The notes under the pieces were generated by a model that made no database searches, had not been told where the DNA came from, and was given only the letters and a program-made list of their open reading frames with translations. A stretch of DNA of 64,000 nucleotides from Acidicapsa acidisoli. Its GTDB lineage: Bacteria > Acidobacteriota > Terriglobia > Terriglobales > Acidobacteriaceae. A program made the position numbers and the translations under genes. Location of the stretch: NCBI RefSeq assembly GCF_025685625.1, contig NZ_JAGSYI010000002.1, forward strand, positions 1,054,001 to 1,118,000, read 5' to 3'. How positions within the stretch are numbered: the first letter of the stretch is position 1; each line of letters starts with the position of its first letter. This document shows positions 8,451-56,007 of this stretch, one piece after another.

Positions 8451-10898
8451 TCAGGCAACGTGACCAACAATCACGCCGCTCAAGGCCTCAGCATCCTGCG
8501 GCCGGGCGTGGAGGAGCGGCAACGCTGCTGCCAGCACCTCCTCGACGCGACTCGCGTAGTGGATCGTGACGCCCTCGGTTTGGGCCGGGGTCAGATCCTC
8601 TTCGACGTTCTGGCGGTTGTCCGCAGGCAGAATCACGTGCTGGACTCCGGCGCGCCGGGCGGCGAGGAACTTCTCCTTGATCCCGCCGACCGGCAGTACG
8701 TTTCCGCTGAGAGTCACTTCGCCGGTCATGGCCGTAAAGGGCCGGATCGGCGTGTTCGTCATGAGCGAAACCAGAGTCGTGACCATGGTGACGCCTGCGG
8801 ACGGACCATCCTTGGGGATGGCGCCCGCCGGCACATGAATGTGCAGGTCGACGGAGTTGGTGAAGTCCTCTTCCAGGCCGAGGCTTCCGGCGTTGGAGCG
8901 GACCCAGGTCAGCGCGGCCTGCATGGATTCCTGCATGACTTCGCCGATCTGGCCGGTCATCGTGAACCCGCCCTTGCCCTTCATGCGGTTAGCCTCAATG
9001 AAGAGGACATCGCCGCCAGCGGGTGTCCAGGCAAGACCGACCGCTACGCCAGCCCGGCGCGTCCGCTCGAAGACTTCCATATCGACGCGAACCTGAACGC
9101 CACCGAGGAACTCCTGCAGAAGCTCTTTGTCGATGACCAGCTTCTCCTTGTTTCCTTCGACGTAGCGCCGAGCGACCTTGCGGCAGACCGTGCCGAGCAC
9201 CTGCTCCAGCCTGCGGACGCCGGCCTCGCGGGTGTAGTGACGGACGATGTGCTTGACCGCCTCCTCAGGGAACTCAATTACCTCGGCCGGAATGCCGTTG
9301 CCTGCAATCTGCCTTGGAATCAGGTATTTGTATGCGATATGGACCTTTTCCTCCTCGGTATAGCCCTGGAGCGAGATGATCTCCATGCGGTCGAGCAACG
9401 GCTCCGGAATGGGATCGAGCATGTTCGCGGTGCAGATAAAAAGCACTTTGGACAGGTCGAACGGCACATCCAGGTAGTTATCCCGGAAGGTGTTGTTCTG
9501 CTCAGGGTCGAGCGTTTCGAGCAGGGCAGCCGCCGGGTCGCCGCGGAAATCGCGGCCGAGTTTGTCGAGTTCATCGAGCATGATCACCGGGTCGTTGGTG
9601 TCTGCGCGACGGATGCTCTGCATGATCTGGCCGGGAAGCGCGCCTACATAGGTGCGTCGGTGGCCGCGAATCTCGGCCTCGTCGTGCATGCCGCCGAGCG
9701 AAACGCGCTGGAACTTCCGCCCGAGCGCCCGAGCGATGGACCGTCCCAAAGAGGTTTTGCCGACTCCGGGAGGTCCGACGAAGCAGAGGATCGGCCCCTT
9801 CATATCAGGCTTGAGCTCGAGAACGCTGAGGTAGTCGAGGATGCGGTCCTTTACCTTTTTCAGGCCGTAGTGGTCGTCATTGAGGATCTCGGCAGCTTTG
9901 CCCAGATCGACTTTCGTACCCGAACTGCGTGCCCACGGCAGGGACGCAAGCCACTCGACGTAGTTACGAACAAGGGACGAATCCGATGCCATTGGAGACA
10001 TCCGCGCCAGCCGATTCAGTTCCTTGAGCGCCTCTTTCTTGACGTCATCGGGCATTCCGACTTCTTCGATTTTCTTGCGCAGCTCGTCGATATCCTTTTG
10101 TCCTTCATCGACTTCGCCGAGCTCTTTTTGAATTGCCTTTAACTGTTCCCGGAGGTAATAGTCCCTTTGTGACTGTTGTACCTGATCCTGCACCTCGGTC
10201 TGAATCTTGTTCCGGAGTTGCTGGACATCGATCTCTTTGGCGAGAAACTGGTTGATCTTCTCCAGACGCGCGGCGACGTCAGCGGACTCGAGCAGGGTCT
10301 GCTTGTCGGTGGTGGTGAGGAACGGTAGCGACGAGGCGATGAAGTCCGCGGCGCGACTGGGCTCCTGGATGTTAGCCGCGATGGTCTGCAACTCATCGGA
10401 CAGGGTCGGCGATGCGTTGACGATCTGCTGGAACTGGAAGATAACGTTGCGCTGCAGAGCCTCAACCGCTGACGATGCGGCAGCCTCGGCCGCCTCCACG
10501 TCCGCGACCGGCTCGACTTCAGCCATCAGAAACGGCTCCGTCTGGCTGAAACGGACGAGGCGCACGCGAGCGGTGCCTTCGGTGAAGACAAAGCGGCTCT
10601 GGTTCGGCATCTTCACGACCTTGTGGACGGTGGCGAGTGTGCCGTACTCGTACAACTGGTCGGGCTGCGGCGAGTCCACACGGGCGTCGCGCTGCGCCAC
10701 GACTACGATAGTCCGTTGATCGCCCAAGGACTCAATCAGCTGAATCGAGCTTTCGCGGCCCACGGTCAACGGGAGCACGGCGTGGGGAAAAAGCACCGTA
10801 TCGCGCACCGGCAATACGGGAATGGCCTTGGCGGCGGACTGGGTGAGCTCTAGTCCGGACTGGGAACTGGGCTGGGAATTGGAAGATGGATTGAACAT
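8451..10898 (-). CDS. lon: ATP-dependent protease La (LonA)
   Basis: The 815-residue cytoplasmic AAA+ serine protease degrades misfolded and regulatory proteins. In order are the LON substrate-binding domain (about 25-220), coiled-coil helices, the AAA+ module with Walker A GPPGVGKTS and Walker B VIMLDELDKLG, and the C-terminal protease domain with the Ser in PKDGPSAG and Lys in GGIKEKFLAA forming the catalytic dyad. Length is normal. I chose ATG 10898, with GAGGA 7 bases upstream, over an open TTG 18 bases earlier. It is monocistronic, with its own terminator. I saw no sigma32 or HAIR-like heat-shock element upstream. Confidence 0.97.
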   Translation of the reverse strand: MFNPSSNSQPSSQSGLELTQSAAKAIPVLPVRDTVLFPHAVLPLTVGRESSIQLIESLGDQRTIVVVAQRDARVDSPQPDQLYEYGTLATVHKVVKMPNQSRFVFTEGTARVRLVRFSQTEPFLMAEVEPVADVEAAEAAASSAVEALQRNVIFQFQQIVNASPTLSDELQTIAANIQEPSRAADFIASSLPFLTTTDKQTLLESADVAARLEKINQFLAKEIDVQQLRNKIQTEVQDQVQQSQRDYYLREQLKAIQKELGEVDEGQKDIDELRKKIEEVGMPDDVKKEALKELNRLARMSPMASDSSLVRNYVEWLASLPWARSSGTKVDLGKAAEILNDDHYGLKKVKDRILDYLSVLELKPDMKGPILCFVGPPGVGKTSLGRSIARALGRKFQRVSLGGMHDEAEIRGHRRTYVGALPGQIMQSIRRADTNDPVIMLDELDKLGRDFRGDPAAALLETLDPEQNNTFRDNYLDVPFDLSKVLFICTANMLDPIPEPLLDRMEIISLQGYTEEEKVHIAYKYLIPRQIAGNGIPAEVIEFPEEAVKHIVRHYTREAGVRRLEQVLGTVCRKVARRYVEGNKEKLVIDKELLQEFLGGVQVRVDMEVFERTRRAGVAVGLAWTPAGGDVLFIEANRMKGKGGFTMTGQIGEVMQESMQAALTWVRSNAGSLGLEEDFTNSVDLHIHVPAGAIPKDGPSAGVTMVTTLVSLMTNTPIRPFTAMTGEVTLSGNVLPVGGIKEKFLAARRAGVQHVILPADNRQNVEEDLTPAQTEGVTIHYASRVEEVLAAALPLLHARPQDAEALSGVIVGHVA

Positions 10899-18725: not shown

Positions 18726-19718
18726 ATGTCTATCGAGATGAGGACCCCTACGCAGAAGACGCCAGCCAGCGCTCCGGCCTCCGGCACATCGGCAGGGCCG
18801 ACGCTGCTGCTGCGCGGGCTGCGCAAGGTCTATGCCGATGTGGTCGCGGTCGATAGCCTCGACCTTGAGGTTGCGCGCGGCGAGTGCTTTGGCCTGCTCG
18901 GACCCAACGGCGCGGGCAAGACCACGACCATCGAGATCTGCGAAGGTCTGACCACGCCCGATGCCGGCACTGTGGAATTGCTTGGCCTAGGCTGGAGCGC
19001 GAACGCCAACGAGTTGCGTCAGCGCATCGGCATCCAGCTTCAGGAGACGCAGTTCCCCGACAAGCTCACGGTTGAGGAGACGTTGCGCCTGTTTCGCAGC
19101 TTCTACAAGCGCGGCATCTCGGTCGACGAATCGATCAAGACCGCGCAACTGGAAGAGAAACGAAAATCGCGAGTCGGTGGACTTTCCGGCGGGCAGAAGC
19201 AGCGCCTGGCCATGGCCTGCGCTCTGGTAGGCGACCCGGAGCTGCTGTTTCTCGATGAGCCGACCACGGGTCTCGATCCGCAGGCCCGGCGGCATCTATG
19301 GGATCTGGTCGACAACCTGAAGCGGGCCGGGCGCACGATCATCCTCACAACACACTATATGGATGAAGCCGAACGGCTCTGCGACCGCGTGGCCATCATG
19401 GACCATGGCAAGATCATCGCGCTCGGCACCCCGCAACAACTCATCGCTTCGATTGGCGGCGAGCATATCGTTGAATTTGCATTGAGCGCTGACCTGACGC
19501 CGGATATCGCGCCTCTGCTGGCGATCGCAGGCATCCAGTCTCACCGCGTCGATGCCGGACGTCACCAGCTCTCCGTTTCTGAGCTGCATGTCGCCGTGCC
19601 GCGCATCTTTGCCGCGCTCAACGACCAGGGGCTGCACCTGAGCGAATTCCGCACCCACTCGGCTACGCTCGAAGATGTTTTTGTCGGATTGACAGGGAGG
19701 AATCTACGCGATGAGTAG
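18726..19718 (+). CDS. ABC-2 type transporter ATP-binding protein
   Basis: The 330-residue ATPase has Walker A GPNGAGKTTT, the signature VGGLSGGQKQRLAMA, Walker B ELLFLDEPTTGLDPQ and the H-loop TTHYMDEAERLCD. The C-terminal extension after residue 240 is typical of DrrA/CcmA-like exporters of drugs or lipids. It overlaps the permease start by eight bases (19711-19718), so one ATPase and one permease form a simple exporter at the inner membrane. The exported substrate is unknown. Confidence 0.93.
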   Translation: MSIEMRTPTQKTPASAPASGTSAGPTLLLRGLRKVYADVVAVDSLDLEVARGECFGLLGPNGAGKTTTIEICEGLTTPDAGTVELLGLGWSANANELRQRIGIQLQETQFPDKLTVEETLRLFRSFYKRGISVDESIKTAQLEEKRKSRVGGLSGGQKQRLAMACALVGDPELLFLDEPTTGLDPQARRHLWDLVDNLKRAGRTIILTTHYMDEAERLCDRVAIMDHGKIIALGTPQQLIASIGGEHIVEFALSADLTPDIAPLLAIAGIQSHRVDAGRHQLSVSELHVAVPRIFAALNDQGLHLSEFRTHSATLEDVFVGLTGRNLRDE

Positions 19719-20742
19719 TTTTGAAAACAGCTCCCTGTTTCAACTGACGATGACGCGCTTCCGGCTCTTTCTGCGCGAGCCGGAGGCTATCTTCTGGATC
19801 TTCGTCTTTCCCGTTCTGCTAGCCGTTGGCCTCGGCATCGCCTTCCGCAACCGTCCGGCGGATGTGCTGCAGGTGGGCGCGACGACCGCGCAGCTCACGC
19901 AATCGCTCGCCGCCGACAAGGGCCTTGCCGCAACGACGATGGACGAGGCTGAGGGCACGCACGCGCTCGCAACCGGAAACATTCTGCTGCTGGCAATCAA
20001 GACACCGGATGGCGTCACCTACAAGTACGACGATACGAATCCTGATGCGCGAACGGCGCGGCTGCTTGCTGACCGGGCAATTCAGACGGCAGCAGGCCGC
20101 AAGGAAGCTCTGCCTTCCGGCAACCAGCTTATCCATGAGACAGGCGCGCGTTACATCGATTTCGTTGTTCCCGGCCTCTTGGGGATGAATCTGATGGGCT
20201 CGGCGATCTGGGGCCTCGGCTTTGCCATTGTCGAAGCGCGCCAGAAGAAGCTCCTAAAACGACTGGTGGCCTCGCCGATGCCTCGCTGGCAATACCTCGC
20301 CTCTTATATCTTGTCGCGTTTGATCATGCTGGTGATCGAGGTCGTGGCTTTTCTGGGCTTTGCCCGGCTGGTCTTCGGGGTGCCTTTGCGCGGCTCGCTT
20401 CTGGAGCTGGGCATACTCTGCGTGCTCACTTCCCTCGCCTTTTCCGCATTGGGCCTGCTTGTCGCGTCACGCGCGAAGACCATGGAAGCCGCATCGGGTT
20501 TGATGAACCTGGTGATGCTTCCCATGTGGATTCTCTCCGGAGTTTTCTTTTCGGCGAGCCGCTTTCCGGCGATCATTCAGCCATTCGTGCAAGCTTTGCC
20601 GTTGACCGCTGCCATCGTCGCGCTGCGCGGCAACATGCTGCAGGGGATGCACCTAGGCCAACTTGTCACCCCGGTTGCAATTCTGCTGGCCTGGCTAATC
20701 GCGCCATTCGCCGTCGCGCTGAAGATCTTCCGCTGGAGATAG
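19711..20742 (+). CDS. ABC-2 type transporter permease
   Basis: The 343-residue membrane protein has an N-terminal transmembrane helix (about 25-47), a periplasmic domain (about 50-150), and five C-terminal helices. The ABC-2 motif is MLPMWILSGVFFSASRFPAIIQPFVQALPLTA. Family members export drugs, polysaccharides or other hydrophobic compounds. The start ATG lies within the end of the ATPase gene. No plus-strand terminator was found in the 200 bases downstream, which are occupied by a convergent small gene. Confidence 0.9.
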   Translation: MSSFENSSLFQLTMTRFRLFLREPEAIFWIFVFPVLLAVGLGIAFRNRPADVLQVGATTAQLTQSLAADKGLAATTMDEAEGTHALATGNILLLAIKTPDGVTYKYDDTNPDARTARLLADRAIQTAAGRKEALPSGNQLIHETGARYIDFVVPGLLGMNLMGSAIWGLGFAIVEARQKKLLKRLVASPMPRWQYLASYILSRLIMLVIEVVAFLGFARLVFGVPLRGSLLELGILCVLTSLAFSALGLLVASRAKTMEAASGLMNLVMLPMWILSGVFFSASRFPAIIQPFVQALPLTAAIVALRGNMLQGMHLGQLVTPVAILLAWLIAPFAVALKIFRWR

Positions 20743-20750
20743 GCGGTGAG

Positions 20751-20942
20751 CTACCCGAGCCACGGGAGGGCGGGCTCGAGCTGATGCAGGTCCGACTCGA
20801 ACTCCGACCACTGCGCCTGGGTGATGGTTTTTTCCTGATAGAGCCGGTACAACTGCTTCTGCACCGTAACCAGACTGCAATTCCTGAGCAGTCGCCGTTC
20901 CTTGAACGCGAGAACGAAGCTATGCCATTCCGCGACGCACAT
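20751..20942 (-). CDS. Small protein of unknown function (paralogue A)
   Basis: I do not recognise this 63-residue protein. It is Trp-rich and amphipathic (CVAEWHSFVLAFKERRL, AQWSEFESDLHQLEPALPW). It aligns without gaps to the neighbour at 21083-21298 with 33 of 61 residues identical, including EW-SF, KER, QLY, AQW-EFE and LEP-LPW; this conservation is strong evidence that both are real genes. The ATG at 20942 has a perfect SD (AAGGAGG) 5 bases upstream, but that SD is part of a 16-base hairpin. No signal peptide or membrane segment is seen. It is convergent with the ABC permease, 8 bases away. Confidence 0.75.
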   Translation of the reverse strand: MCVAEWHSFVLAFKERRLLRNCSLVTVQKQLYRLYQEKTITQAQWSEFESDLHQLEPALPWLG

Positions 20943-20947
20943 TGGAA

Positions 20948-20984
20948 CCTCCTTAGCTCAGGCAACTGTGCCTGAGCTAAGGAG
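20948..20984 (-). promoter_or_regulatory. Hairpin containing the SD of the small gene
   Basis: CTCCTTAGCTCAGGCA and TGCCTGAGCTAAGGAG (16 bases each, plus-strand arms 20949-20964 and 20969-20984, loop ACTG) pair perfectly. On the minus-strand mRNA the distal arm contains the SD AAGGAGG, followed by TTCC and then the A of ATG. No U tract follows, so it looks like a translation-control element rather than a terminator. Confidence 0.65.
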
Positions 20985-21082
20985 TAGTGGCGGGAAGCCC
21001 AAAACCGTTACAGGAAAAACGTGAAAGGGAACCTACAAAGAAGACGAACTGAATCCTAGAAAACCGTGCAACCAGAAGGATT

Positions 21083-21298
21083 CTATCCTCGAATTTCCGT
21101 GGCCGACTTCAACCGCCAGGGCAAGCTTGGTTCCAGCCGATGAATCCCGGCCTCGAACTCCGCCCATTGCGCAGTCGTAATGGAGCGCGACTTATAGTAC
21201 TGATAAAGCTGCGCCTGCACCGCGTGCAGATTGCAGCCTTTGGGCAATTTTCGTTCCTTAACCATGAGCATGAAACTCTGCCATTCGTTCGGATACAC
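21083..21298 (-). CDS. Small protein of unknown function (paralogue B)
   Basis: I do not recognise this 71-residue protein. It shares the pattern EW-SF-L--KER-L---C-L--VQ-QLY--Y with paralogue A (20751-20942) and has a 10-residue C-terminal extension (LKSATEIRG). It starts with GTG at 21298, with AGAGGAGG about 6 bases upstream and freely accessible, unlike in paralogue A. It lies 140 bases upstream of paralogue A on the same strand. The pair probably arose by tandem duplication and diverged in regulation. Confidence 0.72.
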   Translation of the reverse strand: MYPNEWQSFMLMVKERKLPKGCNLHAVQAQLYQYYKSRSITTAQWAEFEAGIHRLEPSLPWRLKSATEIRG

Positions 21299-21505
21299 AA
21301 TAGCCTCCTCTTTATTAAGCGAAAACGCTCGCCATTTTCCTTCTAGCGATTAGTGGTCTCTTACGGAATAACGTTACAAATTGAATTTATTCGGTTCGCT
21401 TGATTGTACACTTCGGCGGTCTCCGCCGCTTCAATAGGTGAAATGGGGATAACTGCCGTTACAATCGTGCATCGTTTGAGAACACGCAGTCTGCCGGTCA
21501 AACCG

Positions 21506-55949: not shown

Positions 55950-55985
55950 AAAAAGGCCAGCGCAGAGGGGAGATCTGCGCTGGCC
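55950..55985 (-). terminator. Terminator of the WXXGXW gene, perhaps bidirectional
   Basis: GGCCAGCGCAGA (55955-55966) and TCTGCGCTGGCC (55974-55985) pair perfectly around a 7-base loop. Toward the minus strand five U follow (A at 55950-55954). It also lies at the end of the convergent YafY gene. Confidence 0.8.
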
Positions 55986-56007
55986 TGCTGCGTTGCGTTA
56001 TATAGGA

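Follow-up and report, generated by a model that had tools for sequence, protein, structure and literature searches.

A perfect hairpin over the Shine-Dalgarno sequence of one of two tandem small genes in Acidicapsa acidisoli: a candidate translational insulator

Two small paralogous genes lie in tandem on the minus strand of the window (the whole stretch of 64,000 nt analysed here), and ahead of the second the RNA can fold into a perfect hairpin that takes in the Shine-Dalgarno (SD) sequence: what does such a structure do at this place, when only one of the two genes carries it? A spacer of 140 nt separates the upstream gene B (21083–21298, minus strand; 71 aa, GTG start) from gene A (20751–20942, minus strand; 63 aa, ATG start), a predicted three-helix small protein that is 54% identical to its paralogue and whose gene converges with that of an ABC transporter permease (19711–20742, plus strand). 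No Pfam family was found for gene A, with Pou as its sole match and below the cut-off of that family, and none was assigned to it by NCBIfam, in which gene B gave a weak match to TsaC far below cut-off; PHROGs returned no match. The structure of gene A predicted from 3 sequences exhibits three helices with a mean pLDDT of 76.9, and a search of the PDB with this model gave a best match at E 4.2, which is not meaningful.

On the minus strand the sequence before gene A reads CTCCTTAGCTCAGGCA-CAGT-TGCCTGAGCTAAGGAG-GTTCCA-ATG. The stem search resolves this into a 5' arm (20969–20984, minus strand; CTCCTTAGCTCAGGCA in RNA sense), a 4-nt loop (CAGT, 20965–20968, minus strand) and a 3' arm (20949–20964, minus strand; TGCCTGAGCTAAGGAG) ending in AAGGAG, with 16 of 16 base pairs formed and the 6-nt GTTCCA separating the hairpin from the ATG at 20942. 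The SD of gene A is AAGGAGG (20948–20954, minus strand), six of whose seven bases lie inside the stem. Thus, the geometry described in the sequence-only reading, a perfect 16-bp stem with a loop of four that contains the whole AAGGAG and ends 5–6 bases before the ATG, is confirmed, as is its statement that no U tract follows, and the structure does not qualify as a canonical intrinsic terminator. Folding of the gene A leader RNA produces the hairpin as drawn, with a z-score of -3.95 and none of 200 shuffled sequences folding equally well. No perfect stem in the 64 kb is longer when loops of 3–10 nt are allowed (the runner-up at 55954 has 13 bp), and for random sequence of this base composition arms of at least 16 bp are expected about 0.0002 times per window and 0.02 times per genome. 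The claim that the arms are longer than chance would provide consequently holds against random sequence, but not against the genome itself, for which such a length is unremarkable: beyond the window, a further 1.2 Mb of this genome contains 12 stems of at least 16 bp, and 0.4-Mb samples of A. dinghuensis and of a further family member contain 4 and 5, respectively. The arm sequence is unique in the 7.1-Mb genome, its own partner being the sole match with fewer than two mismatches, and a repeat element of the REP or MITE kind was rejected for want of additional genomic copies of the arm. No Rfam family matched at gathering score in the whole window, nor at E values up to 1 in the interval 20700–21500.

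In order to place the masking of the SD on a scale, its opening cost was calculated across 1.66 Mb of sequence (1.264 Mb of the same genome including the window, and 0.4 Mb of A. dinghuensis) for the 660 genes in which an SD could be recognised, using a home-made gene caller that missed gene B, so that the distances and counts given here on SD cost, upstream regions and gene ends are approximate. The SD of gene A is the costliest to open of all 660 at 13.7 kcal/mol, compared with a median of 3.2 and a 99th percentile of 9.8 kcal/mol. The earlier observation that only paralogue A is masked also stands by calculation: the SD of gene B (AGGAGG, 21304–21309, minus strand) costs 4.3 kcal/mol and is much less masked, and that of the A. 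dinghuensis homologue costs 3.0 kcal/mol (leader cut 3 nt off the GTG start; 8-base SD opened). The runner-up in the survey is another gene of the same genome at 13.5 kcal/mol (G000:C2:362848, at about 2848 of L084), where GGACTCCT...AGGAGTCC stands ahead of a putative TTG start and the N-terminus of the protein is signal-like. For gene A the result depends on where the RNA begins: opening the SD takes 14–16 kcal/mol if the RNA begins at 20984 or further upstream, and 1.1 kcal/mol if it begins at 20978 or 20977. For the long RNA (from 21030), heating to 55 °C leaves the SD 98% paired in the calculation, and at 75 °C the value is still 87%. By calculation, then, the SD is sequestered in a stable stem of a transcript with both arms, and calculation supports the statement that gene A should be silenced on any transcript containing both arms. 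This part of the silencing proposed in the sequence-only reading is upheld; the part in which a signal opens the stem, by temperature or by ribosome passage, is not.

A candidate promoter lies immediately ahead of the 5' arm. The heptamer TGTAACG (21006–21012, minus strand), a candidate -35-like or regulator element, is common to gene A, gene B and the A. dinghuensis gene, standing 70, 80 and 88 nt before their respective starts; a 7-mer shared at a like offset occurred in 0 of 5000 shuffle sets, and one shared anywhere in 18 of 5000. The candidate -10-like CCACTA (20985–20990, minus strand) abuts the 5' arm, and the TGTAACG upstream of gene B (21372–21378, minus strand) is likewise followed by N15 and CCACTA: TGTAACG-N15-CCACTA(A/C)TC exhibits the same spacing in both genes. 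In A. dinghuensis, CCACTA is not kept. A 183-aa ORF begins about 62 nt after the third exact match of this pattern in the genome (L030); 25 relatives were searched for this ORF without a match, and the protein that follows a match with two mismatches (L034) was found in none of the 14 other genomes of the genus. With up to three mismatches the full pattern yields 75 matches genome-wide, fewer than the 192 of the reversed control, and TGTAACG-N8-24-CACTA yields 6, fewer than the 17 of its control; four of these six have a spacing of 16, two of them being genes A and B themselves and another (L042, the same place as L033) lying, judged by eye, apparently inside an ABC transporter gene. Ungapped similarity between the two leaders is marginal, with the 31-nt window matched by 9 of 500 shuffles and the 20-nt window by 447 of 500, and the likeness of the leaders may be mere descent. 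A sigma-70 scan returned no minus-strand site at the gene A/B region. Taken together, the leader sequences weakly support TGTAACG...CCACTA as a promoter. If transcription begins 7–8 nt after CCACTA, the candidate start at 20978 or 20977 (minus strand) falls inside the 5' arm, leaving a shorter hairpin and an SD that is nearly free. Transcripts that start inside the hairpin had been listed in the sequence-only reading as an observation that would refute it; they are a live possibility and the mode of release that we prefer.

Further copies of the heptamer were also recorded. There are five in the 64-kb window on both strands, three of them upstream of gene A or gene B in sense direction, and the second one upstream of gene B is found at 21457–21463. 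TGTAACG was rejected as a general promoter motif: across 858 upstream regions, A. dinghuensis included, it is not enriched (6 seen against 8.8 expected), and these six include the one of gene A, the one of the B-type gene in A. dinghuensis and two at one further gene, gene B having been missed by the caller. In A. dinghuensis (L119, at about 10216–10243), two copies of TGTAACGA spaced 21 nt apart stand 91 and 70 nt before a gene that we take from its sequence to encode a short-chain dehydrogenase-like protein, and this pair, two helical turns apart, may mark where a regulator binds.

The reading that we prefer, tentatively and somewhat short of an even chance, is that the hairpin acts as an insulator, blocking translation of gene A on RNA that reads through from gene B while the transcripts of gene A itself escape. 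Read-through RNA from gene B would carry both arms and would fold the SD of gene A into the stem; at 14–16 kcal/mol for opening, gene A should hardly be translated from such RNA. The own transcript of gene A, driven by the TGTAACG...CCACTA element, would start inside the 5' arm and, lacking the outer part of this arm, would form the inner hairpin only, with AAGGAGG left free. Silencing in the cell, the start within the arm and read-through from gene B are each what we infer. If this reading is correct, a duplicated small gene is kept off on the transcripts of its neighbour and yet can be switched on from its own start, by means of a simple element.

The strongest competitor, to be taken seriously though somewhat unlikely, is that the structure serves chiefly as the 3'-end hairpin of gene B, either as a terminator without a U tract or as an RNA-stabilising end, its overlap with the SD arising incidentally from the crowding of the tandem genes. 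Its force comes from a count of 27 hairpins with arms of at least 13 bp in 1.66 Mb (the studied hairpin and A. dinghuensis included, the other family member, G064, left out, and gene B added by hand): 20 of them lie within 75 nt of a gene 3' end and 23, the studied one included, within 150 nt, compared with 15% and 25% of 5000 random intergenic intervals. None of the 27 lies inside a called gene, and 18 have no U tract by the criterion used. The studied hairpin is on the strand of gene B and lies 98 nt after its stop codon. Against this, the 98 nt exceed the distance in 20 of the 27 hairpins, the stem is not followed by a U tract, the register covers AAGGAG exactly, and the 6 nt to the start of gene A are the smallest non-overlapping distance among the 27; three hairpins of the set, this one included, overlap a called start or lie within 15 nt of one, against a background of 4.5%. 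A long perfect stem is ordinary in this genome as a gene-end structure; it is the register over the SD that stands out. Intrinsic terminators without a U tract are known from mycobacteria, and the hairpin is like them in being a stable perfect stem between tandem genes, with many such stems at gene 3' ends here; it differs in that its 3' arm is the SD of the next gene, and termination is a putative role. Given that the long perfect hairpins of this genome lie mostly at gene 3' ends, the stem may also end or protect transcripts of gene B, and this role and that of an insulator may both be true at once. Immediately behind gene B, at 21051–21083 from the end of its stop codon, GAATCCT/AGGATTC forms a 7-bp stem with a 19-nt loop, followed by a T-rich stretch: judged by eye it is a weak terminator candidate for gene B, which the terminator scan did not return.

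A further explanation draws upon the history of the pair. Clear homologues were found in one other genome only, A. dinghuensis 4GSKX: counting the own genome each time, homologues occur in 2 of 41 relatives, 2 of 15 genomes of the genus and 2 of 398 of the family, and in the class sample the count was 3 of 399, made up of the own genome plus two weak matches (E 0.001, interrupted by stops; E 0.008). None was found in viral contigs or, with gene B as query, in plasmids, and of two scans of genome contigs the first returned none and the second one, that of A. dinghuensis. This genome holds a single B-type gene beside the same permease (84.5% protein identity) and lacks gene A, and among the genomes searched no homologue of gene A together with its leader was found. 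With the A. dinghuensis gene as outgroup, gene A has accumulated 14 amino acid and 40 base changes, compared with 2 and 15 in gene B, and it is without eight near-C-terminal residues that are present in both gene B and the A. dinghuensis gene. One could hence regard the hairpin as a lesion that silences a rapidly evolving duplicate, in which a template switch during replication would have created the inverted repeat over the SD of a gene that is being lost, in keeping with the faster change of gene A, its missing residues and its absence from A. dinghuensis. We consider this improbable: the frame of gene A is intact, and dN/dS between genes A and B is 0.28, with an upper bootstrap bound below one (0.12–0.63), compared with 0.07 between gene B and the A. 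dinghuensis gene. Gene A appears from this ratio to be under purifying selection and is probably made at some time, which also counts in favour of the insulator. The asymmetry in changes must be read with the choice of outgroup in mind, which is uncertain since synonymous sites are nearly saturated in these comparisons: protein identity is highest between gene B and the A. dinghuensis gene (70%, vs 54% for A–B), whilst synonymous differences are smallest between genes A and B (0.64, vs 0.73 for gene B and the A. dinghuensis gene).

A DNA operator at the promoter of gene A, with the RNA structure being incidental, would account for the position of the palindrome, as the 36-bp dyad abuts the candidate -10 element and covers the candidate start. 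We nevertheless hold this to be decidedly improbable: operators seldom have half-sites that are perfect over 16 bp, and there is no second paired site, with the 31 other arm matches in the genome at up to three mismatches (the closest having two) all without a partner arm at hairpin distance. A switch opened by a signal, be it an RNA thermometer, an sRNA target or opening by ribosome passage, fits the masking of the SD as such but is scarcely credible, given the absence of internal mismatches that could melt and of any Rfam match even at the relaxed E value, and with the stop codon of gene B 98 nt upstream of the hairpin making opening by ribosome passage unlikely. In case of the thermometer, the types represented by ROSE and fourU likewise pair the SD in a leader hairpin, with stems that are imperfect and marginally stable, whereas the stem here is perfect; because the SD remains paired to the extent calculated at 55 °C and 75 °C, and is not freed in the physiological range, a thermometer is very unlikely.

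The principle of hiding an SD is already known from phages, and what is found here is an orphan gene pair. According to the review PMC3014915, leaders of the T4 genes e (lysozyme), soc, 49 and I-TevI form a hairpin that hides the SD in long run-in transcripts; gene e is masked in this way on long early transcripts, whereas its late promoters, located at the 5' strand of the hairpin, produce short RNAs that lack the 5' part of the structure and have a free SD. The insulator that we propose is like gene e in that the SD is hidden in long upstream RNAs and would be free in 5'-truncated ones. The T4 switch has been demonstrated, belongs to a phage and takes its timing from late promoters, whereas at this locus it would concern chromosomal orphan paralogues and a candidate start. 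A wider proposal, speculative and on balance unlikely, is that the locus is a chromosomal, non-phage counterpart of the gene e switch between tandem paralogues: a regulator-linked promoter would lie across the 5' arm, the choice of start site would decide translation of gene A, and long perfect hairpins of acidobacteria would have a double role, forming gene 3' ends and insulating the next gene against translation.

Beyond this locus, the hairpin observations point to a class of long perfect gene-end hairpins in acidobacteria; of the papers found on promoters or transcript ends in this group, none is devoted by its title to where acidobacterial transcripts end. The 13-bp perfect hairpin at 55954–55986 of the window, 5 nt past a called gene end and flanked on one side by T-rich sequence, belongs to the same class, and perfect stems of 24, 21 and 22 bp stand at gene ends elsewhere in the same genome (L061, 6506–6559; L061, 3801–3845; L047, 4043–4089).
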